Shown: positions 2,517 through 59,617 of the stretch, in pieces
Layout of the letters: every line of letters starts with the position of its first letter
Position numbering within the stretch: position 1 is the first letter of the stretch
Source of the DNA: Hymenobacter monticola
GTDB taxonomy: Bacteria; Bacteroidota; Bacteroidia; Cytophagales; Hymenobacteraceae
Length of the DNA: 64,000 nt
Assembly (NCBI RefSeq): GCF_022811645.1
Contig: NZ_CP094534.1
Location: 3,906,001-3,970,000, forward strand
Direction of reading: 5' to 3'
Notes under the pieces: model-generated
What the model saw: the letters and a program-made list of their open reading frames with translations, nothing else
Told to the model about the DNA's origin: nothing
Database searches by the model: none
Translations under genes and position numbers: made by a program

Positions 2517-2604
2517 GTAGGGTGCGGGGCTTGCCCCCGCCCGTCGTTGAAGGAGTTGCGCGGTATTCGTTCAACGACGGGCGGGGGCAAGCCCCGCACC
2601 CTAC
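2517..2604. repeat. Palindromic repeat, GC-rich gtaggg(t)gcgggg family
   Basis: The left arm begins gtagggtgcggggcttgccc and the right arm is its reverse complement ending ctac. The inner edges are cgttgaa and ttcaacg. Close copies of this family are at 3791-3867, 6504-6589 and 30341-30447. It lies just past the stop codon of the minus-strand VWA gene and could act as a hairpin in its transcript. Confidence 0.9.
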
Positions 2605-3790: not shown

Positions 3791-3867
3791 GTAGGGGCGG
3801 GGCCTGCCCCCGCCCATCGCCGAACGATATCCGTCTGACGATGGGCGGGAGCAAGCCCCGCCCCTAC
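3791..3867. repeat. Palindromic repeat, gtaggggcgggg family
   Basis: Arms starting gtaggggcggggcctgcccc and ending gcaagccccgcccctac flank a short centre. It sits between the VWA gene start and the azoR stop. It makes the VWA reading frame look artificially long at its 5' end. Confidence 0.9.
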
Positions 3868-5166: not shown

Positions 5167-6507
5167 ATGCTTGTTGAAGAAATTATCCGCCCCCTGACGA
5201 GACCTTTTGGAGAGTTTTTCCGGCGCGAGGCCGCCGGCAGCATCGTGCTGATGGCCAGCGCCGTGCTGGCCCTGGTGCTGGCCAATACCAATTGGGGCCC
5301 GGCGCGCCACTTTCCGGCCGTGTGGGACGAGCACCTGCGCGTGGAACTGCCGGGCCTGTTGTTTGACCACACGCTGCTGCAATGGATAAACGACGGCCTG
5401 ATGACGATTTTTTTCCTCATCGTGGGCCTGGAAATCAAGCGCGAAGTGCTCGACGGCGAGCTGTCCTCGCCCCGGCAGGCGGCGCTGCCCATTGCCGGCG
5501 CGCTGGGCGGCATGCTCATGCCGGCGCTGCTGTTTGCCTGCTTCAACCACGGCACGCCCACGGCCGGCGGTTGGGGCATTCCCATGGCCACCGACATTGC
5601 CTTTGCCCTGGCCGCGCTGCAGCTGCTGGGGTCACGCATCCCGCTAGGGCTGAAGGTGTTTTTGACGGCTCTGGCCATTGTCGACGATTTGGGGGCCGTG
5701 GTAGTCATCGCCCTGTTCTATACCCGCGAGCTGCACCTGATTTATCTCGGTTTAGCGCTGGGCACCTGGGGCCTCACGCTGAGCTTCAACTGGTTGCGGG
5801 TTCGCAGCCTGTGGGCGTATCTGCCTCTGGGCGTGGTGCTGTGGTATTTCATGCTCGAATCGGGCATTCACGCCACCCTGGCCGGGGTGCTGCTGGCGGT
5901 GGCCATTCCGTTTCGGGTGCCGTACTCGCGCCAGGAGCTGCTGCGCCGGGTGGATGAGCGACTGGCTCTGCTGCGCATGGAAACGCACGAGCCTGCGGCC
6001 GACCCGCGCATCATCAGCGAGGAGCTGGAGGACTTGCACCAGCAAAGCAGCTCGCCGGCGCAGCGGCTCGAAACGCAGCTGCATTCGGTGGTGAGCTTCG
6101 GCATCGTGCCCCTGTTTGCGTTTGCCAACACCAGCCTCGTCATCGAGCCGGCGGCGCTGCAAGGTCTGCTTTCGCCGCTGGGCCTGGGCATCATCGTGGG
6201 CTTGGTGGTGGGCAAGCCGCTGGGCGTCGGGCTGTTGTCGTGGCTCACGGTGCGCCTGGGCTGGGCCGCGCTGCCGCCCGGGGTGGCGTGGCCGCAGCTG
6301 TGGGGCGCCGGGGTGCTGGCCGGCATTGGCTTCACGATGTCCATTTTCGTCACCCTGCTGGCGCTGGGCGAACACTCCGCCGGCACCGATGCCGCCAAGC
6401 TGGCCATCCTGACGGCGTCCCTTACCGCTGGGGCGCTGGGCTATGCGCTGCTCCGCAGCACCGCAGCTGCCGGTCCTGAGGCGTCAGGCCCAGATAGAAA
6501 GGCGTAG
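5167..6507 (+). CDS. nhaA: Na+/H+ antiporter NhaA
   Basis: This 446-residue inner-membrane protein has about 12 hydrophobic segments. NhaA signatures include MTIFFLIVGLEIKREVLDGELS, GIPMATDIAFALA and the paired aspartates of ALAIVDDLGAVVVIALFY, which bind and carry Na+. It exchanges Na+ (or Li+) for protons. A soluble loop rich in Glu, Arg and Gln lies around residues 260-300 (MRMETHEPAADP region). The TAG stop at 6505-6507 is part of the left arm of a palindromic repeat starting at 6504, so the last codon before the stop (GCG) directly abuts the repeat. The C-terminal residues after about 430 are probably not essential. Confidence 0.95.
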   Translation: MLVEEIIRPLTRPFGEFFRREAAGSIVLMASAVLALVLANTNWGPARHFPAVWDEHLRVELPGLLFDHTLLQWINDGLMTIFFLIVGLEIKREVLDGELSSPRQAALPIAGALGGMLMPALLFACFNHGTPTAGGWGIPMATDIAFALAALQLLGSRIPLGLKVFLTALAIVDDLGAVVVIALFYTRELHLIYLGLALGTWGLTLSFNWLRVRSLWAYLPLGVVLWYFMLESGIHATLAGVLLAVAIPFRVPYSRQELLRRVDERLALLRMETHEPAADPRIISEELEDLHQQSSSPAQRLETQLHSVVSFGIVPLFAFANTSLVIEPAALQGLLSPLGLGIIVGLVVGKPLGVGLLSWLTVRLGWAALPPGVAWPQLWGAGVLAGIGFTMSIFVTLLALGEHSAGTDAAKLAILTASLTAGALGYALLRSTAAAGPEASGPDRKA

Positions 6508-6589
6508 GGGCGGGGCTTGCCCCCGCCCGTCGTTGAACGGCCAACGTGGGTTTCGTTCAACGGCGGGCGGGGGCAAGCCCCGCCCCTAC
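6504..6589. repeat. Palindromic repeat, gtaggggcgggg family; supplies nhaA stop codon
   Basis: Arms start gtaggggcggggcttgcccc and end cgcccctac, with inner edges cgttgaac and gttcaacg. The TAG in the first bases is the nhaA stop codon. It may serve as the 3' hairpin of the nhaA transcript and of the converging DUF5682 gene. Confidence 0.9.
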
Positions 6590-6647: not shown

Positions 6648-8996
6648 CTACGCCCCCAACAGCACCCGCAGCCCCGGCAGCACCCGCGCCCCGCGCTCCC
6701 AGTCGAAATCCTCCGATTCCGACGTGCCCGAAACCGCAGCATCGGAGTTGGCGATTTCCAGAATCTGCCGCCGCTCGGGCAGCGAGAAGTCGGTGAAGGC
6801 GCGGCGAAGCAGGGGCACGATTTCGCGAAAGGTGTCCTCATTGAGCTCGCCCAGCCAGCGGTCGAGCAGGTCGAACAATTCGCGGTGGTGGATGAGCAAC
6901 AAGCCCGAGCCGCGCAGGAAGCCCTCCACCCAGGCCGTGGCGTAGTCGGTGGGCTGGGCGGGCGCCAGGGCCAGGCCGAGGGCTGTGGCGGTGGCGTCGG
7001 AATCGTTTTGCTGGGCGTCGAAGAGCAGGCGGGTGGCCGCGCCGGCTAGCAGGCCAGCGCTGGCTGCATTGCGCTGCACCGCTCCCAACGCGGCGTACCA
7101 GTCGGCTTCGTGCTCGTCGTTTTGTAGCAGGCGGATGGCCTGGTGGGTGGCTTCCAGGCGCGTGAGCAGGGCCTTGGCCGCGTCGTAGTCGAGGCCGGCG
7201 CAGGCGGCGGGCAGCCCGATGCACAGGCGCGGCACCAGTTGCTGCACTACCTGGGCCACCTGCGCGGTGTCGGTGCGGCGCACGTTGCCGTAGCGCAGCA
7301 CCTGGGCCAGCGGCGGCAGGGCGGCCAGCAGGTGTGTCACGTCGCGGGTGTCGGCCCCGATGGTTTCAAGCCGGGCCACCAGCGCCGGAATGGCCGGGCC
7401 CAGGTCGGCGCGCAGGGCGTGTTCCAGCAGCGTGCTCACCGCTTCGAGGCTGGTGGCCTCGGCGGCGCGGGCGGCGGCGCGGGCGGCGGCGGCGGCCAGC
7501 ACGGTATTGCCCCAGCGGCCGGCTTCAATGACGGCCAGGGCCATTTCGGGCTCCCATTCCAAGGTCCACAGCTCGTGGAAGGTGCCGCGGGCGCCCGTCG
7601 CTTCTTCGGGCTCGCCCCAGTTGATGTCGAGCAGGCGCAGGCGGTGCAGCAGGTGGCTGCGGTCGAGCTGGGCGGGCTGCCGCAGGTCGAGGTCGAGGTC
7701 TTTGGCCATGGCTTCGGGCTTGAGGCGCAGCGACTTTTGCTGCTGAGCCAGGTCCTGCTGCAAGGGCGTGGCGGGCAAGCCGGCGGGCACCTCGCCCAGC
7801 TTGTGGCCGATTACCAGTTCCTTCTGCACCAGGGCCAGCGGCTCGGCGTAGCCTCCTCCCAAAATGGCCACGGCCGCTTCCTGCAGCTCATCGATGCCCG
7901 GCAAAGCCAGCCCGCGCACGGCAGCCAGCGCCGCCGCCAGCCGCACACCCTCAATGGCGTGAGCCGAGGAGGCGTCCACGTCCTGCCCGCGCAGCAGGCG
8001 GGTGGCGCGCACCATCCAGTGCGTCAGCACTTCGGCCCGCGGCTGGCTGAACAGCAGCTCGTACCAGGCCGGCGAGAGCACGCCTGCCCCATAGCCCGAG
8101 CTGAACGACAGCCGCTCGTAGGTCCACGGAATCCAGGTGGTTTCGGTCGGCACTTTCTTCAGCCCTTTCAGCCGCGCTTTATCTTCCTTTTTCAGCAAAT
8201 CAGCTTGCAGCACCGGCGCGTGCCAGGCCCCGCACACCACCGCCACACGCGGGTAGCCCTGGGCCAGGGTGGCGCGCAGGGTTTCGCGCATAAAGGCCTC
8301 GCGCAGCAGGGTTTCTTCGGTTTCGGGGCGCTTTAGCTCCTCGCGCAGTGCTGTCATCAGCTCCAGCACCACGGCGAAGGTGTCAGCGTTGCCGGGCGCG
8401 TGTTCGAGGTGTGTTTCCCACCACTGCTCCGAATCGGTGTAGCCGGCCAGGCGGGCAATGTAGGCCACGGGGTCGGTGTTGGGGGCGACTTCCGGTGCCT
8501 CACCGGCCGCCGGAACCTCACCCCCTGACCCCCTCTCCAAAAGAGAGGGGGCACCGGCTCGTGAGGACGATTCCATAACCGTAATATCTGGGAGCAAGTC
8601 CGCTGCCCCCTCTCTTTTGGAGAGGGGGTCAGGGGGTGAGGTTTGCGCGAGGGGAGCCAAAATGGCCTCTCGCATGCCAAACCGCAGGCTCATCGGCAAA
8701 TCCATGCACCGCACGTGCGCCGCATTTCGTGCCGCCCAATGCACCGCCTGCCACTCCGGCGAAAACTCGGCGAAGGGCAGAAACGAGGCCTGCCCCTGCT
8801 GCTTGGGGTTGTACACCAGCAGCGCTACGGGCGGCACCAATTCGGGGTTGGTGGCGGTGGCCAGGGCGGCCTCGGCATCGGCGGGGCATTCGAGCAGAAT
8901 GATATCGGGCCAGAATTCTTCGAGGGCGGCCACGAGGCTGGCGGCGCTGCCGGGGCCGTGGTGGCGAATGCCGAACAGGCGGAGGTTGGTGGACAT
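6648..8996 (-). CDS. DUF5682 family protein (MoxR-system component) carrying an in-frame palindromic element
   Basis: From ATG 8996 this is 782 residues. It begins MSTNLRLFGIRHHGPGSAAS; the RHHGPGSA motif and LLECPADAE mark DUF5682, a family usually encoded with MoxR ATPase, VWA and SWIM zinc-finger genes. Residues about 119-161 (8514-8642) are a 43-codon insertion encoded by a palindromic repeat, reading TSPPDPLSKREGAADL and so on. Removing it restores a continuous protein, with MASLAQ-type sequence before and PAAGEAPEVAPNTDP after. The remainder is largely helical and Ala/Leu-rich. An upstream ATG at 9026 would add 10 residues (MHPLPSPFRP) and is less likely. Function is unknown; system membership is inferred from family context. 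Confidence 0.85.
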   Translation of the reverse strand: MSTNLRLFGIRHHGPGSAASLVAALEEFWPDIILLECPADAEAALATATNPELVPPVALLVYNPKQQGQASFLPFAEFSPEWQAVHWAARNAAHVRCMDLPMSLRFGMREAILAPLAQTSPPDPLSKREGAADLLPDITVMESSSRAGAPSLLERGSGGEVPAAGEAPEVAPNTDPVAYIARLAGYTDSEQWWETHLEHAPGNADTFAVVLELMTALREELKRPETEETLLREAFMRETLRATLAQGYPRVAVVCGAWHAPVLQADLLKKEDKARLKGLKKVPTETTWIPWTYERLSFSSGYGAGVLSPAWYELLFSQPRAEVLTHWMVRATRLLRGQDVDASSAHAIEGVRLAAALAAVRGLALPGIDELQEAAVAILGGGYAEPLALVQKELVIGHKLGEVPAGLPATPLQQDLAQQQKSLRLKPEAMAKDLDLDLRQPAQLDRSHLLHRLRLLDINWGEPEEATGARGTFHELWTLEWEPEMALAVIEAGRWGNTVLAAAAARAAARAAEATSLEAVSTLLEHALRADLGPAIPALVARLETIGADTRDVTHLLAALPPLAQVLRYGNVRRTDTAQVAQVVQQLVPRLCIGLPAACAGLDYDAAKALLTRLEATHQAIRLLQNDEHEADWYAALGAVQRNAASAGLLAGAATRLLFDAQQNDSDATATALGLALAPAQPTDYATAWVEGFLRGSGLLLIHHRELFDLLDRWLGELNEDTFREIVPLLRRAFTDFSLPERRQILEIANSDAAVSGTSESEDFDWERGARVLPGLRVLLGA
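8514..8642. repeat. 129-bp palindromic element inserted in frame (copy 1)
   Basis: Arms are aacctcaccccctgaccccc (left) and the matching ggtcagggggtgaggt (right), around a centre containing gattccataaccgtaatatc. Its length of 129 bp is 43 codons. It has no stop in the host gene's frame. Copy 2 at 14052-14180 has the same length, orientation and frame. The centre (ctcgtgaggacgattccata and on to gagcaagtcc) is nearly identical in the two. Confidence 0.93.
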
Positions 8997-9059
8997 GGGG
9001 CGGAATGGGGAGGGCAAGGGGTGCAAATGAACAACGCCCCGCCCAACCCGGCCCGCGTT

Positions 9060-12437: not shown

Positions 12438-15400
12438 TTATTCTCTTAGCGACCCCTCCAAATCGGCTTGGAAGCGCAGGGTGTCGATGAATTCGTGAAG
12501 TTGGGGTTGAAAGGTTTGGTGCATGTCGGCAATGGCTTCGGCTTGCTGGATGACGGCCACCGCATCGGCCGGGGCCACGTTGGGGGCCACGGTCTGGGAC
12601 AGCAGCCACGCCAGCTGGCGCAGGTGGTAGGGCGGGGCGTTGACCTGGTACAGCGTGGCCGTGTTCGCCAGTTGGCTGGCAATGGCCCGCACCACCGTCA
12701 GGCTAAATGTGCGCGGCCACGGCGCAGGCACAAAGCCGAGGTCCTGCGTCCAATTTGGCACCTGGCGGCGCACCCGCTCCAGAATGGGCTCCAGCAGCTG
12801 CTCCTGACGGGCGTCGTCGGAGAGAAGCGCCGCCATCGAAACCCAGTCGATACCCCGGTCGCAGTGGGCTTTTTCCAACGCCGGTCGCTCGTTGAGCCAA
12901 ATCGTGAGGAAAGCACCAGCGAAGGCGGCATCGTGGTGCAGCAAGGTGCTGCGCGACCAAGCCGTGAGCAGCGGCAAAGCCCATTCCGAAGCCAGGGCAG
13001 CAGCCAGTAACTCAGGCGGCGTGAGGCCAAGGTGGGTTAGCCAGCGCTGGGGCGGCAGCAGGGCCAGCAGGTTAGCGAGGCGGGCAGTGGCGGGGCCCAC
13101 CGGCGTGTGAAACGTGGGCCCGTAGGCCGATAGAAACCGGGCATTCTTCTCCTCGATGCCATCGGCCAGCCAGGATTTGTCCCAGGCCTCGGGAAGGACA
13201 ACATCGAGCTGGGCTTTGCCCAGGCCCAGCAGCTTGCGACTGGCGGATAGCAGCGGGGCGGCCCGTGCCCACAGCCGCTCGGTGAGGGCGGCGCCGGGCA
13301 GCTGAACCAGCAGCTCGGTGGCAAGACGGCGCACCTCCTGGCCGCGCGCTTTCAGCAGCGTTTCCAGCGCGGGCTCGGCGTCGGGGTGCAGGTGCTGGGC
13401 CAGGATTTCGAGCAAGGCCTCCTGCACCTTAGCCGGCTCGGTGGGCAGGGCGGCCAGGAGCAGGGCGCGGGCCTCGTCGGGCGCCTGGGCGAAGCGTTCG
13501 GCGAGCCAGGCGCGGCGCTGAGGCAGCGTGCCGGTTTCCCAGGTTTCGGGGTCGGCGCCCGGGTCCGATTCGGCAGGAGCAAGGCCTTCAGCCATTTTGG
13601 CCCAATCGGGGTTTTGTCGAATCAGCCAGTGGCCGCGCTGCCCCAGCACCAGCCCCAGCGCCGCCCGTGTTTCGGCCGAACGGGTGGCGTGCTGCAGCAG
13701 CGGCACCAGCAGGGCCGGGGGCACGCGCAAATCGCGGCCCGCCAGACGGGTGAGGTAGTCGGGCAGCAGCTCCAGGTGCAGGCTGTTGACGAGCATCTGG
13801 TGCAGGTGGGCGGTGCCCTTGGGGCCTACTACGGGCAGCAGCTCGGCGGGCGCGGGCGCGAGGGACGGGCCGGCAGCGGGGGCCGGCCGGAGGCCCGCCT
13901 TGCGCATCAGGGCCAGGGTACCAGCGGCGAGCAAGAGCTGCTGCTCGGGTGTGTCGGCGGGCGTGGGGAAGGCAGGAATGGCTTCGCCGCTCTGGCGCGT
14001 GCCGAGCAGGGCAATGCGCAGGAGCTGGGCGGCTGACGGCGCGGCTGGGAAAACCTCACCTCCTGCCCCCCTCTCCAAGAAAGAGGGGGCACTGGCTCGT
14101 GAGGACGATTCCATAACCGTAATATCTGGGAGCAAGTCCGGTGCCCCCTCTTTTTTGGAGAGGGGGGCAGGGGGTGAGGTCCACGCGTGGTCCGTCGCCC
14201 AGCTACCCAGCGGCCGAAACGCCTGCCCATCCCATTCGCCAAACAGCGTGACCGGCTGCCCGCCGCTTTCGGCCAGCAGCTGCCAGCCAAAATCCTCATC
14301 AATAAAGCGCAACGGCAGCGTGCCGGCCTCCGTGCGGTGGTGCAGTTGCCAGCGGCCATCGGGCAGTGGCATGGGCAGCACCTGCGCCAGCGTAGCGGGC
14401 CACTCGCGCAGCCAGGGCTGGCGGGCCAGCGCGTCGGCGTAATCGTGGAGCAGCTGACTGATGGACTGACCCGTCGGCACTGCCCCGGGCGGCACCGTGC
14501 CATCGAATTTTACCTGCACCGGAGCGGCCCGCAGCGGCAGCAAGCCGGGGTAAAAAGCCAGTTCGCCCAGGTAACTGCCGTGCGGAATGAACGGCGTACC
14601 AAAGGGCTGCCCGCCAAAAGAAAACTCCAGCACCAGCGCGGTGCGGCCGGTGCGACGCCCGTGCAGCCAGGTGCGGCGGGCGGTGAGACGGTCTTCCTCC
14701 CAGCGGAACTGGCCCAGCACGCGCCAGGCGTCGGACACGGGCGGGGCGGTGGCCAGGAGGTCTTCTTTTTTGAGGTTGACGCCGACTTGCTGGAGGATTT
14801 CCGGGCGGGCATCGGCACTGAGCTGGGGCAGGTTCTGGAAGGCCCGCACCAGCAGGAAAAGCTCGCCCAGGCGGCCCAGCAGGCGGGCGGGCCAGTCGGT
14901 GTGGGCGTGGCGCAGGGTGGCCAGCTCGCGCAGGGCAGCGGCCAGGCCGGGCAGCTGGTTGTCGACCAGCCGGGCGGCTTGGCTTTCCCAGAACTTCGCG
15001 GGCTGCTGGTCGAGGGTTGCCAGGCCGGCACGCATCAGGTCTTCGAGCCAGGCGGCGAGGTCGTCGGCGCCGGCGGCCATGCGGGCCAGGCGCTTGGGGT
15101 CGACGCTGAGGCCGCCGGTCGGGGCTGCTTCAAGAGCATCAGCAGCGGCATCGTTGTCCGGGGCTGAAGCGTCGACTGGGTTGCTTTCGGCAGACAACTC
15201 GGTTGCGGCCGTGGCCTTGGGCGTTTTGGCGGCCGGGGGCGCAGCGGCTTTCTCGGTCTTTTTCTCCTGAGTTTGCTGGCGCTTGCTGAGCCACTCTTCC
15301 AGCCAGGCGGGCGGGGTGGTGCCCGTCAGCAGTTCGGGCTGGCGGGACATGAGCAGGAGCAGGCCGGCGCCGTGCTTGCAAGGAAACACCCGGCTCGGGC

Positions 15401-15602
15401 AGCTGCATTTAAAGGCCGGCTCCGTGAGGTCGATGCCGGTAAGGTAGGGCTTGCTGCCGCTGCCGGCGCACTCGCCCCAGGCTGCTGTATCGGTGCGGCC
15501 CAGGTTGGCCCATTTGGTGGGCTTTAGCAGCTCCTGGCCCCTTTTTAGGGTGCCGGGGTCGGTGATGAGGGCTTGGGCTTGCGCTTCGGTGAAGGAAATC
15601 AT
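12438..15602 (-). CDS. SWIM zinc finger protein with DUF5691-like C-terminal half and in-frame palindromic element
   Basis: This is a 1054-residue protein. The SWIM zinc finger CxCx6CxH is complete: Cys66, Cys68, Cys75 and His77 in FKCSCPSRVFPCKHG. An acidic/Ala-rich linker lies around 105-165. The C-terminal half from about 520 (AAQLLRIALLGTRQSGEAIP, later LPLLTAWSRSTLLHHDAAFA) resembles DUF5691, which other bacteria encode as a separate gene beside SWIM, MoxR, DUF5682 and VWA. A 43-codon palindromic element (14052-14180, residues about 475-517, TSPPAPLSKKEGAPDL and on) sits in frame right at the junction of the two halves. It leads the probable operon with MoxR. SWIM domains bind DNA or protein; the precise role is unknown. 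Confidence 0.85.
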   Translation of the reverse strand: MISFTEAQAQALITDPGTLKRGQELLKPTKWANLGRTDTAAWGECAGSGSKPYLTGIDLTEPAFKCSCPSRVFPCKHGAGLLLLMSRQPELLTGTTPPAWLEEWLSKRQQTQEKKTEKAAAPPAAKTPKATAATELSAESNPVDASAPDNDAAADALEAAPTGGLSVDPKRLARMAAGADDLAAWLEDLMRAGLATLDQQPAKFWESQAARLVDNQLPGLAAALRELATLRHAHTDWPARLLGRLGELFLLVRAFQNLPQLSADARPEILQQVGVNLKKEDLLATAPPVSDAWRVLGQFRWEEDRLTARRTWLHGRRTGRTALVLEFSFGGQPFGTPFIPHGSYLGELAFYPGLLPLRAAPVQVKFDGTVPPGAVPTGQSISQLLHDYADALARQPWLREWPATLAQVLPMPLPDGRWQLHHRTEAGTLPLRFIDEDFGWQLLAESGGQPVTLFGEWDGQAFRPLGSWATDHAWTSPPAPLSKKEGAPDLLPDITVMESSSRASAPSFLERGAGGEVFPAAPSAAQLLRIALLGTRQSGEAIPAFPTPADTPEQQLLLAAGTLALMRKAGLRPAPAAGPSLAPAPAELLPVVGPKGTAHLHQMLVNSLHLELLPDYLTRLAGRDLRVPPALLVPLLQHATRSAETRAALGLVLGQRGHWLIRQNPDWAKMAEGLAPAESDPGADPETWETGTLPQRRAWLAERFAQAPDEARALLLAALPTEPAKVQEALLEILAQHLHPDAEPALETLLKARGQEVRRLATELLVQLPGAALTERLWARAAPLLSASRKLLGLGKAQLDVVLPEAWDKSWLADGIEEKNARFLSAYGPTFHTPVGPATARLANLLALLPPQRWLTHLGLTPPELLAAALASEWALPLLTAWSRSTLLHHDAAFAGAFLTIWLNERPALEKAHCDRGIDWVSMAALLSDDARQEQLLEPILERVRRQVPNWTQDLGFVPAPWPRTFSLTVVRAIASQLANTATLYQVNAPPYHLRQLAWLLSQTVAPNVAPADAVAVIQQAEAIADMHQTFQPQLHEFIDTLRFQADLEGSLRE
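14052..14180. repeat. 129-bp palindromic element inserted in frame (copy 2)
   Basis: It has the same architecture and length as the copy at 8514-8642. Its arms (aacctcacctcctgcccccc and ggggggcagggggtgaggt) carry paired base changes that keep the stem complementary. It encodes SPPAPLSKKEGA and LERGAGGEV on the minus strand, in the same phase as copy 1. Confidence 0.93.
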
Positions 15603-17799: not shown

Positions 17800-17814
17800 G
17801 GTTGCATCCAGCGA

Positions 17815-17920
17815 ATGGCACGAGTACCCCGAAGCTCCGCTTCGGCCCGGACGAACGCCAAAACCCTTGTTGGTCATCGTTCAATAGGGCCGAAGCGGAG
17901 CTTCGGGGTACTCGTGCCAT
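17815..17920. repeat. Palindromic repeat, atggcacgagtacccc family
   Basis: The arms atggcacgagtaccccgaag and the reverse complement ending gtactcgtgccat flank a centre of about 40 bp. The last bases contain ATG (17919), an in-frame but unlikely alternative start for the helicase gene. Confidence 0.9.
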
Positions 17921-17947
17921 GCAAAATCCCTCCTTTAGCGGTAATTT

Positions 17948-17972: not shown

Positions 17973-20900
17973 ATGCCTGCCCGCTATTTCCCACGTCTCG
18001 CGGCCCTTGCCACCGACGCCACCGCCACGCCCGCCGACCAGCTTCCGCGCCTGCGCAAGCTGCTCGAAGCCGTGCTGCGCGACGAGTACAAGCGCCGCGG
18101 CGTGAGCTTCGGCAACCTCAGCCAGGCCATCGGCTTTGTGGCCTATGAGCACGAGTTCACGGGCCGCCTGCGCCACCAGTTGCAAGCCCTGCGCCTGAGT
18201 GCCAACCTGGTGCTGCACGAAAGCTACCCCGGCACCGTGGCCGAAGTGGCCTCCGGCTTCCACGCGGTGGTGGAGCTGATTGAGCAGCTCACCGGCGTGC
18301 TCTACGACGGCCCCGCCCTGCAGCTGCCACCCGATGCCGGCCTGGAGGAAAACGAGCAGGCTGCCTTCGAAGCCGCGCTGGCTGCCCAGGCCGCCACCCC
18401 GCTGCCGCCCGCCACACCGCAAGTGGCCTGGCGCGTGCACGTGCTGGCCACCAACCTAGCCACCGGCGAGCTGACCGTGGAAATGGACAAGCCCGCCGAC
18501 GGCCGCCCCGCCGGTCCCTTCGACGTGGTGCTGCCCGAAGCCTACGCCAGCCTGCTGCCCACAGCGGCCGTACTGCACCCCACGCTGCACCTCATCGGCC
18601 CGGTGCTGCTCCCCGATGGCCGCGTGCAGCCGCGCCGCGTAGTGCTCGAGCCCGACTACCTCATCAGCGTCACCACCGTGGCCGAGTGCGCCCAAAAGGA
18701 CGGCACCATTCCCGAGTGGGCCCTCATCAACGCCTTTTTGCCCGATGAAACCTCGCGCTCGTTGGTGCTCGGTAACCTCGTGAACATGTTGTTGGACGAG
18801 GAAGTGAGCCACGCCGCCCGCAACGAGGAGCTGAAAAGTCAGCGCAAGGACGCCGACATGCAGGAGCGCATGGCCGCGCTGGCGAGCTTGCTCGAAAAAG
18901 GACGGCCCGGCCAGGGGTTCGCCAAAAACACTTTTAACGGAATTGAAAACACGTTCGACTCTGCCACTAGCACGAGTGTGGCCGATGAGCCAAGCACCAA
19001 GCACCAGGTACCAGGCACCACCGACTTCGACCTCGAACACTTCCTGCACAAGCGCCTGTTCCGCCTGGCACCGCTGTCGCTGAGTACTTTGCCCGAGTTT
19101 CAGACCCGCAACGGCGTGCCGGAGCTGTTCAACGACCTGCGCCGCCACCACCGCACCCTGCGCGACACCCAGCTGCGCGGCTTCGTGGCCGACAGCCGCA
19201 CCGGCTACCAGCAGCAGCGCCTGCGCGTGGCCGACTGCTTCCTCGAACCCACTTTCCTTTCGGCCACCTACGGCCTGCAGGGCCGCCTCGACCTGCTGCA
19301 CGAAAGCCCGACCGGCTACGACCTCATCGAGCTGAAAAGTTCGAAATCGGTTCCCGGCGGCCCGCCCTGGACCAATCACACCGCTCAGGCCCAACTCTAC
19401 CGCCTGCTGCTCGAATCGGTGTTTGGGGCCGATGGCGAAACCGCGGGCCGTGGCCGCACCAGCATCCTATATTCTAATGCCGTGGATGGCCAAAGCGCCG
19501 TGCGCCGCGTCGACCAAGACCAGGCCCTGATTGACCGCCTGCTCAACGCCCGCAACCAGTTGGTCGGCGTGGAACTGCAGCTGGCCCGCGCCACCGGCCC
19601 GCGCCAGACGCGCCAGCTGCTAGCGCCCGTCATCCATCCCAACCTGGCCGGCCTGCCCAGCTTCGGGCGCGACAAAGCCCAGCACGTGGCCAACGCCTGG
19701 GCCGCCGCCGACCGCGTGGAGCGCGCCTACTGCCTGGAGCTGATTCGCTTCTCGGCCCGCGAAATGCGTCTGACCCTGCTCGGCGACGAGGCTCGCCCAG
19801 GCGATGCCGGCGGCCAGGCCGGCCTGTGGCTGCTGCCCCAGGCCCGCAAGCACCAGAACTTCAGCCTGCTCGACGAGCTGGAATTGATTGAAGACCACAG
19901 CAACGCCGACGATGATGCCCGCGACGGCCTGGGACCGCACCTGGTGTTCCAGCGGCCCGCGGGTGGGCGGGAAGTCAATTTCCGGGCCGGCGACACGCTG
20001 ATTCTGTACCCGCGCCGCAAAGCCGGGGCTGCGGCCGACCAGGCCACCGCGCCGCTCGGCGTGCTCGATGCCCAGGTAGTGAAGGTGGTGCTGGCCGAAG
20101 ACCTCGGCACCGACGGCCGCGTGGTGCTGTCCATTCGCAACCGGCGGCTGGCGCCCCGCTACCTGCACGGCCACTCGCATTGGGCCCTGGAGCCCGACAC
20201 TTACGACACCTTCCGCCGCGAGTGGGCCAGCATCTCGGCCTTCCTCAGCCTGGCGCCGGAGCGGCGGCAGCGCCTGCTGGCCCGCACCGCGCCGCGCCGT
20301 CCCGAGCCAGAGTTCTGGACGCCCGCCTCCGAGCCCGCCACCACGGCGCCCGAGGTGGTGGCCCGCGCTCTGGCTGCGCCCGACTGGTTTGTGCTCTGCG
20401 GCCCGCCCGGCACCGGCAAAACCCGCGCCGTGCTGCGTGAGCTGGCCGAACGGCTCTATCAGCAGGACAAGCACACGCTACTGGCCGCCTACACCAACCG
20501 CGCTGTAGACGAAATCTGCGAGCAGCTGGTGGCGGCCGGGCTGCCGTTTATTCGGGTGGGCTCGCGGCTGGGCACGGCGCCGCACTACCGACCCTATTTG
20601 CTCGATAACATGTTGCGCGACTGCCCCACGCGCCAGGCCGTGCGCGACCGGCTCAAGCACTGCCCGTTCTACGTGGGCACCGTGGCCAGCCTGCTCGGAA
20701 AGCCCGAGCTGTTCACCCTCAAGCAGTTCGACCTGGCCGTGGTGGACGAGGCCAGCCAGGTGCTGGAAGCGCCCATGCTGAGCTTGCTCTCCAAAGTCAA
20801 CAAGTTCATTCTCATCGGCGACCACCGCCAGTTACCTGCCGTTGTCACGCAAGAGCCCGAGGCCAGCGCCGTGGCCGAGGAAGTGGCCGACTTGCTGCAG

Positions 20901-21632
20901 CAGGAGCTGGGCCTCAGCAACATGCGCAACTCCTATTTCGAGCGCCTGTTCAAGAAAGCGGAAGCGCACTGGCCCCACGCCCACGGTACCCTCGCCGACC
21001 ACTACCGCATGCACACCGAACTGGTGGCGCTGGTGAACGACGACTTCTACAACGGCCTGCTGCGCTGCCCCATGCCCTGGCAGCACGAGCCCCTGAACCG
21101 CGCCGCCTGGCCCGCACCCACCGACGCCTTTACCGAGCAACTGCACGCCCGGCGCTTGGTGTTCGTGCCCACCCGCCGCCAGCCCGAGGACTTGTCGATG
21201 AAAGAGTCGGCCCAGGAGGCCGACCTGGCGGCCCGCACCGCGGCCTACGTGGTGCAGGGCTACGGCCCCGATTTCAATCCTGAAACCACCCTGGGCATCA
21301 TCGCCAGCTACCGCAACCAGGCGGCGCTCATTCGGGCGCGGCTGGCGGCGCTGGCGGCGGAACTGGCGCTGCCCGCGCTGGCCCAGGTCAGCGTCGATAC
21401 CGTGGAGCGCTACCAGGGCTCGCAGCGCGACGTCATCGTGGTGAGTTTCTGCTGCCACCACGAGCACCAGTTAGAGCTGATGGTGTCGCCCAACGAAGAC
21501 GGCACCGTCGACCGCAAGCTCAATGTGGCACTCACGCGTGCGCGGCAGCAGCTGGTGCTGCTTGGAAATGAGGAGGTTTTGCAACGCGCGCCGCACCATG
21601 CTGCGCTGCTGGCGCGCGTTGCAAAACCGTAG
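17973..21632 (+). CDS. Dna2-like PD-(D/E)XK nuclease / superfamily 1 helicase
   Basis: This is a 1219-residue protein. The middle part carries a Cas4/Dna2-type nuclease: GRLDLLHES followed by YDLIELKSSKS (around residue 450, D...ExK) and NHTAQAQLYRLLL. The C-terminal third is a UPF1/Dna2-like helicase: Walker A CGPPGTGKTRAVL (around 809), VVDEASQVLEAP (around 922), GDHRQLPAVV, ADHYRMH, VDTVERYQGSQRDVIVVS and NVALTRARQQLVLLG. The family unwinds and trims DNA ends or flaps. The Fe-S cysteine pattern was not obvious. Residues about 325-350 are a low-complexity linker rich in S, T and D, encoded by a locally repetitive, less GC-rich stretch. It stands alone after a palindromic repeat. Start choice is ATG 17973; 17919 lies in the repeat. 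Confidence 0.88.
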   Translation: MPARYFPRLAALATDATATPADQLPRLRKLLEAVLRDEYKRRGVSFGNLSQAIGFVAYEHEFTGRLRHQLQALRLSANLVLHESYPGTVAEVASGFHAVVELIEQLTGVLYDGPALQLPPDAGLEENEQAAFEAALAAQAATPLPPATPQVAWRVHVLATNLATGELTVEMDKPADGRPAGPFDVVLPEAYASLLPTAAVLHPTLHLIGPVLLPDGRVQPRRVVLEPDYLISVTTVAECAQKDGTIPEWALINAFLPDETSRSLVLGNLVNMLLDEEVSHAARNEELKSQRKDADMQERMAALASLLEKGRPGQGFAKNTFNGIENTFDSATSTSVADEPSTKHQVPGTTDFDLEHFLHKRLFRLAPLSLSTLPEFQTRNGVPELFNDLRRHHRTLRDTQLRGFVADSRTGYQQQRLRVADCFLEPTFLSATYGLQGRLDLLHESPTGYDLIELKSSKSVPGGPPWTNHTAQAQLYRLLLESVFGADGETAGRGRTSILYSNAVDGQSAVRRVDQDQALIDRLLNARNQLVGVELQLARATGPRQTRQLLAPVIHPNLAGLPSFGRDKAQHVANAWAAADRVERAYCLELIRFSAREMRLTLLGDEARPGDAGGQAGLWLLPQARKHQNFSLLDELELIEDHSNADDDARDGLGPHLVFQRPAGGREVNFRAGDTLILYPRRKAGAAADQATAPLGVLDAQVVKVVLAEDLGTDGRVVLSIRNRRLAPRYLHGHSHWALEPDTYDTFRREWASISAFLSLAPERRQRLLARTAPRRPEPEFWTPASEPATTAPEVVARALAAPDWFVLCGPPGTGKTRAVLRELAERLYQQDKHTLLAAYTNRAVDEICEQLVAAGLPFIRVGSRLGTAPHYRPYLLDNMLRDCPTRQAVRDRLKHCPFYVGTVASLLGKPELFTLKQFDLAVVDEASQVLEAPMLSLLSKVNKFILIGDHRQLPAVVTQEPEASAVAEEVADLLQQELGLSNMRNSYFERLFKKAEAHWPHAHGTLADHYRMHTELVALVNDDFYNGLLRCPMPWQHEPLNRAAWPAPTDAFTEQLHARRLVFVPTRRQPEDLSMKESAQEADLAARTAAYVVQGYGPDFNPETTLGIIASYRNQAALIRARLAALAAELALPALAQVSVDTVERYQGSQRDVIVVSFCCHHEHQLELMVSPNEDGTVDRKLNVALTRARQQLVLLGNEEVLQRAPHHAALLARVAKP

Positions 21633-30314: not shown

Positions 30315-30340
30315 ATTGGTTGACGAGGCCGTTGGAGATT

Positions 30341-30447
30341 CCGGAACGACGTAGGGGCGGGGCTTGCCCCCGCCCGGCTGTTCGCGCCGGCTCAACGATT
30401 TTGTTCAACGATGGGCGGGGGCAAGCCCCGCCCCTACGTCGTTCCGG
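30341..30447. repeat. Palindromic repeat, gtaggggcgggg family, extended arms
   Basis: The arms extend beyond the usual gtag end: ccggaacgacgtaggggcgg on the left and the reverse complement ending gtcgttccgg on the right. The centre contains cgattttgttcaacg. Confidence 0.9.
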
Positions 30448-30499
30448 ATGCGTCCACAAAATCCGTGGAATCCGTAAAATCCGAGCGAATCCGTGGTCC

Positions 30500-59517: not shown

Positions 59518-59617
59518 AAATGTAGCGTGGACTCTGCGAGTCCGCGCGTGGGCGGAGTTATACGGAAAGCCCGCATAAGGCGGGCATACGCGGACTCGCA
59601 GAGTCCACGCTACATTT
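59518..59617. repeat. Palindromic repeat, aaatgtagcgtggactctgc type
   Basis: aaatgtagcgtggactctgc and on pairs with the complementary gcagagtccacgctacattt exactly over 29 bp. A partial copy (aaatgtagcgtgtggg) begins at 59500. It ends about 36 bp before the hutU start. Confidence 0.92.

Follow-up and report, generated by a model that had tools for sequence, protein, structure and literature searches.

In-frame copies of a dispersed palindromic, REP-like element in protein linkers of Hymenobacter

Within a 64,000-nucleotide stretch of the Hymenobacter monticola genome (contig NZ_CP094534.1, positions 3,906,001 to 3,970,000; here called the window), two genes, one for a DUF5682 protein and one for a SWIM-DUF5691 protein, each contain a 129-bp palindromic element that is inserted in frame and read in the same phase. 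We consider it highly probable that both inserts are copies of a dispersed element resembling repetitive extragenic palindromes (REPs), in which two inverted REP-type units enclose a middle of about 42 nt, an arrangement like that of REPINs (REP doublets forming hairpins). Four different dispersed palindrome families (A, to which the window copies belong, B, C, and E) occupy the MetH or Hen1 linkers of different Hymenobacter species, and, judging from these sequence comparisons, mobile repeats seem to have supplied protein linkers with new sequence again and again.

Two palindromic inserts and their host genes

The inserts and their hosts, in window positions, are as follows.

8514..8642, minus strand: copy 1 of the 129-bp palindromic element; arms 8514-8557 and 8600-8643, middle 8558-8599; reading in the host gene, TSPPDPLSKREGAADLLPDITVMESSSRAGAPSLLERGSGGEV
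14052..14180, minus strand: copy 2 of the 129-bp palindromic element; arms 14053-14095 and 14138-14180, middle 14096-14137; reading, TSPPAPLSKKEGAPDLLPDITVMESSSRASAPSFLERGAGGEV
6648..9026, minus strand: host gene 1, DUF5682 (PF18934, E value of 2.9e-243, match over residues 32-790); start uncertain, at 9026 or 8996
12438..15602, minus strand: host gene 2, with Pfam matches to SWIM (weak, residues 65-83) and DUF5691 (PF18944, residues 526-1049)

The two copies share their orientation and are 91% alike across 139 nt, with arms of 43 to 44 nt flanking a 42-nt middle. The arms are 98% complementary in copy 1 and 93% complementary in copy 2, and the corresponding stem scores of 41 and 34 compare with 7.3 ± 1.2 and 7.1 ± 1.0 for codon-shuffled linkers; as RNA, copy 1 has a predicted folding energy of -104.8 kcal/mol (z of -14.5). 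The middles are identical (42/42), and all nine differences fall in the arms (79/88 alike). Both copies encode, in the same phase, a peptide of the form TSPPxPLSKxEGA...LERGxGGEV; this TSPP phase is free of stops whichever strand is read, and on the coding strand the +1 phase is open as well. An earlier sequence-only reading of the window had the coordinates, 129-bp length, strand, and translation of both copies right, and the in-frame, same-phase insertion into the DUF5682 and SWIM-DUF5691 genes that it described is borne out. Its statement on paired arm changes holds only in part: five of the seven arm change events between the copies are one-sided (three retain a G-T wobble, one repairs a mismatch, and one breaks an end pair), the other two being compensated (positions 15/116 and 30/101).

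Copy 1 corresponds to residues 129-171 of the DUF5682 open reading frame (ORF), counted from 9026. In an AlphaFold2 model of this host, built with 33 homologues and having a mean pLDDT of 81.8, the single long internal segment with pLDDT below 50 spans residues 127-182; it contains the whole insert and lies between predicted helices at 112-128 and 186-193, which puts the insert in a predicted disordered linker. Copy 2 begins at residue 475 of the SWIM-DUF5691 ORF and ends shortly ahead of the DUF5691 match; the SWIM match is weak (E value of 0.013, under the cut-off). The placement of the inserts in linkers, proposed from the sequence, is thus upheld by the DUF5682 model, and further in-gene copies between domain matches are found in the genus (see below).

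SWIM and DUF5691 form one ORF in the window and are separated by stops at the same junction in several relatives (L127, L128, L136, L118, and L135); the element in the window gene sits at that junction.

A dispersed repeat in the host genome

The inserts belong to a palindromic repeat that is dispersed through the host genome. A search of the 6.1-Mb genome gave 84 matches at an E value of ≤0.001 which, with both strands counted and 40 of 70 first-look candidates scored, correspond to about 42 places. A profile search of 490,661 bases of sequence, fetched around element matches, listed pattern matches, and Y1_Tnp genes and thus not a census, recovered 78 places, of which 56 are inverted pairs and the other 22 single units. 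By location, 71 are intergenic, 2 lie at gene ends, and 5 are in called genes. The family A unit can be written as CCTCACCCCC(TGA or CGG)CCCCCTCTCC-loop-GGAGAGGGGG. Many full-length intergenic copies carry an additional complementary border (e.g., CTGGCGTC), as if they had been inserted into, or extended by, a palindrome. This outer border is variable in sequence (e.g., L182, L192, L194, and L209), and several in-gene copies lack it.

Beyond the window, three own-genome copies lie in genes, namely, those for Hen1, a Pnkp-like protein, and a PBP1C-like protein. The Hen1 and Pnkp-like copies begin in the TSPP phase, and the right arm of the Pnkp-like copy is read in a different phase. The Hen1 and Pnkp-like genes are neighbors (L037, C1:4163488-4167198), each with an in-frame palindrome, as are the two window genes, so that pairs of neighboring genes have been hit twice in this genome. 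At gene ends, repeats supply the last residues and the stop codon, reading ..TSPSDPLSK* and ..NLTP* (L012, C1:4057198-4057329, and L011, C1:1922533-1922659); we take these two genes to be trpA and a carboxylase-like gene. Similar overlaps with gene ends occur among the surveyed copies of other genomes.

In-gene copies across the genus

Among 101 genomes of the genus (Hymenobacter, as judged by named relatives, the host included), 87 contain a match to the element. We surveyed 60 full-length or nearly full-length copies from 16 other genomes, selected by similarity to a window copy; this selection leaves aside three copies in DUF5682/DUF5691 orthologues and about thirteen lower-scoring copies. 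Genes, here as in the host genome, were called with a home-made codon-usage method, and in-gene hosts alone were checked against Pfam. Counted by location and frame, 14 of the 60 copies lie inside genes, each of them in the TSPP phase. Length is divisible by three in 14/14 in-gene copies and 23/46 intergenic copies; when six rows with ends extrapolated by over 5 nt are removed, the figures are 13/13 and 19/41 (Fisher P of 0.0003). The common full-length forms, 129 and 117 nt, are multiples of three. In the intergenic copies, 84 strand-readings show the TSPP phase open in 46, the +1 phase in 37, and the +2 phase in 5. The +1 phase is the one used by A-like elements in two relatives (G092 in MetH and G026 in DUF5682) and by the A-like family D in two more (G016 and G071).

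The 14 hosts fall into ten Pfam families: a dual ABC transporter ATPase (three copies), Hen1 and AcrB (two each), and MetH, GcpE/IspG, PNKP, PBP1C, a UvrD-type helicase, HsdM, and PDDEXK (one each). The insert lies between domain matches in the MetH, Hen1, ABC, and UvrD-type proteins. In AcrB (L217) and IspG, where a single family matches in two stretches, it directly follows the first. It lies ahead of the PDDEXK match and after the N6_Mtase match in those two hosts; in PNKP and PBP1C it falls within the span of a domain. The sequence-only reading had noted that both window hosts belong to one MoxR-type system; the possibility that the pair of copies is special to such a neighborhood is rejected, given the presence of the same element in these ten other families.

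Arm pairing does not differ between in-gene (n = 15) and intergenic (n = 39) copies, 8 of 62 rows having been dropped when the end motif was not found. The proposal that paired changes keep the hairpin within genes is therefore not clearly supported, given this equal pairing, the mostly one-sided arm changes between the window copies, and several orthologous linkers without a long stem.

The same linkers in relatives

In relatives, the DUF5682 and DUF5691 linkers contain either the same peptide, decayed to differing degrees, or a stretch rich in Pro, Ala, and Glu whose length varies; H. terricola and H. cyanobacteriorum are among the species with the peptide in the DUF5682 linker. All 30 DUF5682, 24 MetH, and 24 Hen1 linkers examined are stop-free multiples of three. 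Among the DUF5691 linkers, 27/30 are multiples of three and six contain stops, reflecting SWIM and DUF5691 as separate ORFs or, in G065, doubtful anchors. Broken homologues are under-sampled here because the linker loci were the best-scoring ones.

Long palindromes, defined as those that fewer than 2% of codon shuffles match, occur in 11/30 DUF5682, 7/30 DUF5691, 17/24 MetH, and 18/24 Hen1 linkers, a total of 53/108 compared with 2/216 equally long flanking coding windows; this share does not represent linkers in general, because the four linkers were picked for having an element copy. A plain stem score of at least 10 gives a similar picture (54/108 linkers and 7/216 control windows). The frame can stay open where no long stem is present, as in both genes of G049 and the DUF5682 gene of G038. 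An empty state is visible in MetH: 15 further relatives, picked for matches that split without a gap at the linker, have a linker of 21 nt with both flanks conserved (L295, a sixteenth stretch, was omitted as too short), compared with 126 nt in G084, which has the element. Outside Hymenobacter the DUF5682 linker is 18 to 126 nt long in 33 of 34 relatives, with one of 207 nt; within the genus, it is 72 to 222 nt.

Several palindrome families in one linker

The MetH linker holds members of four families: A, the A/T-richer family B (AGAGTTAAGAGTTAGGAGTTGA), family C (CCCCTCCCCAAAAGGGAGGGG), and family D (CCCCACCCCCC), which is A-like. The Hen1 linker holds family A or, read in frame in five to six relatives, family E (GTAGCGTGGACTCTGCGAGTCCGCG). 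Dispersal within the respective genome is likewise seen for families B, C, and E: with both strands counted and part of the candidates scored, family E has 158 matches in G024 and 156 in the genome of the window, family B has 70 in G051, and family C has 73 in G031. By the same procedure, family C has no matches in the genome of the window and family B none in G066. On a tree of 24 MetH proteins with the linker removed, five linker states labeled by eye require at least 8 changes, where the minimum possible is 4; with family D merged into family A, 6 changes are needed and the minimum is 3.

Association with Y1_Tnp genes

Three of the four Y1_Tnp genes in the host genome are flanked on both sides by palindromes other than family A, one of which is family E; a search extending 1.5 kb from each of 34 Y1_Tnp loci (30 from relatives and 4 from the host) found no family A unit. 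Family E, which is read in frame in the Hen1 genes of relatives, thus resembles a REPIN-type element that has an enzyme of its own, whereas no such link was found for family A at the 34 loci. In four genomes (G049, G026, G055, and G008) the repeat is present and no Y1_Tnp match was found.

The flanked loci (L043, C1:2047809; L045, C1:3607565; and L046, C1:1955577) carry three different palindrome families (GTACCCCGAAGCTCC..., TAGCGTGGACTCTGCG..., and AGTAGCGCGAACTTTGTAG...), all of which are also present in the window (17813-17922, 59518-59617, and 524-608).

Proposed insertion and turnover, and alternative explanations

The most likely course is near-neutral insertion followed by decay or replacement. 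Because the TSPP phase is commonly open and the 129- and 117-nt forms are multiples of three, insertion in this phase lengthens the protein and does not break it; with TSPP the phase most often open, a copy entering in either orientation would add about 40 residues. Copies would come in either through transposition or through recombination of the arms with copies at other sites, those that break genes would be purged, and those in linkers would be close to neutral, decaying by mutation and sometimes being overwritten by another element. The encoded peptide is presumably translated.

Several observations weigh against this account. No dedicated transposase was found for family A at the 34 Y1_Tnp loci. 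A lower-scoring copy in G066 (C1:1957384) lies in a frame-split Hen1 gene and outside the survey, so that the clean 14/14 omits a contrary case. Match coordinates put the Hen1 homologues of G066 and G081 in two frames each, with the split near the linker, and G081 also has a DUF5691 linker (L126) of 149 nt; in these cases an insertion may have broken the gene. Gene calling recognizes open frames alone, which accounts for part of the in-frame survival, and breaking insertions may hide among the copies scored as intergenic. Counts of homologues, moreover, are not counts of independent events because the sequences and species are related.

A more sweeping extension of the insertion account would make the inter-domain linkers of many Hymenobacter proteins, housekeeping and other, recurrent landing pads for REP/REPIN elements, with several families competing and overwriting one another through insertion and through swaps and inversions mediated by the arms, mobile DNA as a main source of linker sequence, and elements readable on both strands favored, as they stay in frame after flipping. 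We regard this extension as less likely than not.

Recombination would account for linker turnover in a different way: once a linker holds a palindrome, its arms would offer homology to dispersed copies, middles and their orientation would be swapped or inverted by gene conversion, and linkers would behave as exchangeable cassettes. The identical middles and diverged arms of the window copies are what such exchange would leave, and the middle aligns better in the opposite orientation in five linkers, those in DUF5691 of G038, G024, and G081, in DUF5682 of G081, and in Hen1 of G071 (local alignment scores of 14 to 21 compared with 6 to 9). The TSPP phase is also open in 29 of 31 in-gene readings (both strands, the coding strand included), compared with 46/84 intergenic readings. 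Arm homology, however, cannot explain how different families succeed one another in the MetH linker, and some MetH relatives have the 21-nt linker and no palindrome. As the explanation of turnover we judge recombination rather unlikely; it may add to insertion.

Functional domestication, in which the hairpin or the Pro/Glu/Gly-rich peptide is kept for use (e.g., to slow ribosomes between domains or as a flexible spacer), seems improbable to us. It would fit the position of inserts between domain matches in most hosts, the extreme stability of the RNA, the repeated filling of the same linkers, and the use of the TSPP phase although +1 is often open. The long stem is nevertheless lost with the frame open in some orthologues (both genes of G049 and DUF5682 of G038), arms in genes pair no better than those between genes, 15 MetH relatives do without an insert, and the host families are many and unrelated.

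There is very little chance that the inserts are artefacts, whether spurious ORFs, assembly errors, or compositional palindromes: 22 kb of the window holds 65 ORFs of at least 100 amino acids, and open frames are weak proof by themselves because so many of these long ORFs overlap, yet strong Pfam domains surround the inserts, only 2/216 control windows are palindromic, and the element recurs in the genomes of many species. Removal of the element from RNA or protein as an intron or intein, for which no supporting point was found, is hardly credible and was rejected, as no Rfam family scores above its gathering threshold in the window and the element is open, in phase, and adds just 43 residues.

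Relation to known elements

The behavior of the insertions resembles that of Rickettsia palindromic elements (RPEs), described in PMC10969869 as dispersed palindromes of about 150 bp that form several families and occur at various sites, in-frame positions in unrelated genes among them. RPEs are recognized as palindromes of some 100 to 150 bp in many copies, and the 129-bp palindrome, at about 42 places in its own genome, is of this kind; it likewise shows in-frame insertion of a shared peptide into unrelated genes (14/14 in the TSPP phase, in ten families, the frame-split Hen1 copy of G066 lying outside the survey). The RPE-like behavior suggested by the sequence-only reading, that is, a dispersed palindrome in frame in a linker, therefore holds and extends to further cases in the genus. 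Unlike RPEs, these elements occur in a different host phylum, family A is mostly intergenic, and different families fill the same linkers.

By its locations (71/78 intergenic) and its pairing (56/78 inverted pairs), family A satisfies the general description of a REP. PMC3733652 describes REPs of the CGTC type in Bacteroidetes and, for several phyla, REPs within genes; there, REPs are often inverted pairs downstream of genes, some lie in ORFs and are suggested to be neutral in flexible linkers, the CGTC type has no transposase of its own, and different REPs lie near the same recB site in two Xanthomonas species. The CGTC REP is defined in that paper by a terminal CGTC, a stem of 8 to 9 bp starting with AT pairs, and a loop of 4 to 5 nt, whereas family A has a GGCGTC-like outer border in many copies but a C/G stem of about 10 bp (CCCCCTCTCC/GGAGAGGGGG). 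Family A also differs from GTAG REPs and from REPINs with their REP-associated tyrosine transposases (RAYTs) in having no constant GTAG end and in its absence from all 34 Y1_Tnp loci; family E (GTAG-CGTGGACTCTGCGAGTCCGCG) resembles them, with its GTAG end and its position on both sides of a Y1_Tnp gene in the host genome. Miniature inverted-repeat transposable elements are defined by terminal inverted repeats related to a resident transposon and by a target duplication; in family A palindromic ends are seen, and the search for a parent transposon covered Y1_Tnp, for which no link was found. The RU and ERIC (enterobacterial repetitive intergenic consensus) elements of enterobacteria are, according to PMC2759123, small mobile repeats whose open frames have become joined to genes without a frameshift; the fusions reported there are at C-terminal regions and none are in conserved domains, while the Hymenobacter inserts lie between domain matches or within the span of a domain (PNKP and PBP1C).

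Since in-gene REPs have been published for other phyla, the kind of event is already known. What is new is that different families use the same linkers over again across one genus, a sharing that sets these elements apart from the REPs of PMC3733652, together with the many conserved Hymenobacter hosts and the high share of palindromes in the linkers examined. We found no report of in-frame REPs in Hymenobacter or other named Bacteroidota, in a literature search that did not cover the gene list in the supplement of PMC3733652. Whether in-frame REP-type insertions are tolerated junk or a source of new protein sequence is a question for which Hymenobacter offers test material: the route of entry, the effect on the protein, and translation across a hairpin of about 40 bp are testable because there are many species, insert-free relatives, and several families in the MetH and Hen1 linkers, and IspG and AcrB provide further conserved hosts. 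For annotation, the cautionary point is that Hymenobacter linkers can hold mobile-repeat sequence.

Other palindromes in the window

A scan of the window detected 17 palindromes with a stem of at least 15, clustered at 150 nt. Three are inside called gene bodies, namely, copies 1 and 2 and one in the ORF at 17973-21632, close to its end. A further two touch gene ends. Another palindrome family, with GTAGGGGCGGGGC or a close variant, has four copies in the window (2517-2604, 3791-3867, 6504-6589, and 30340-30448); in the palindrome at 6504, GTAG overlaps the TAG stop codon of the ORF at 5167-6507.

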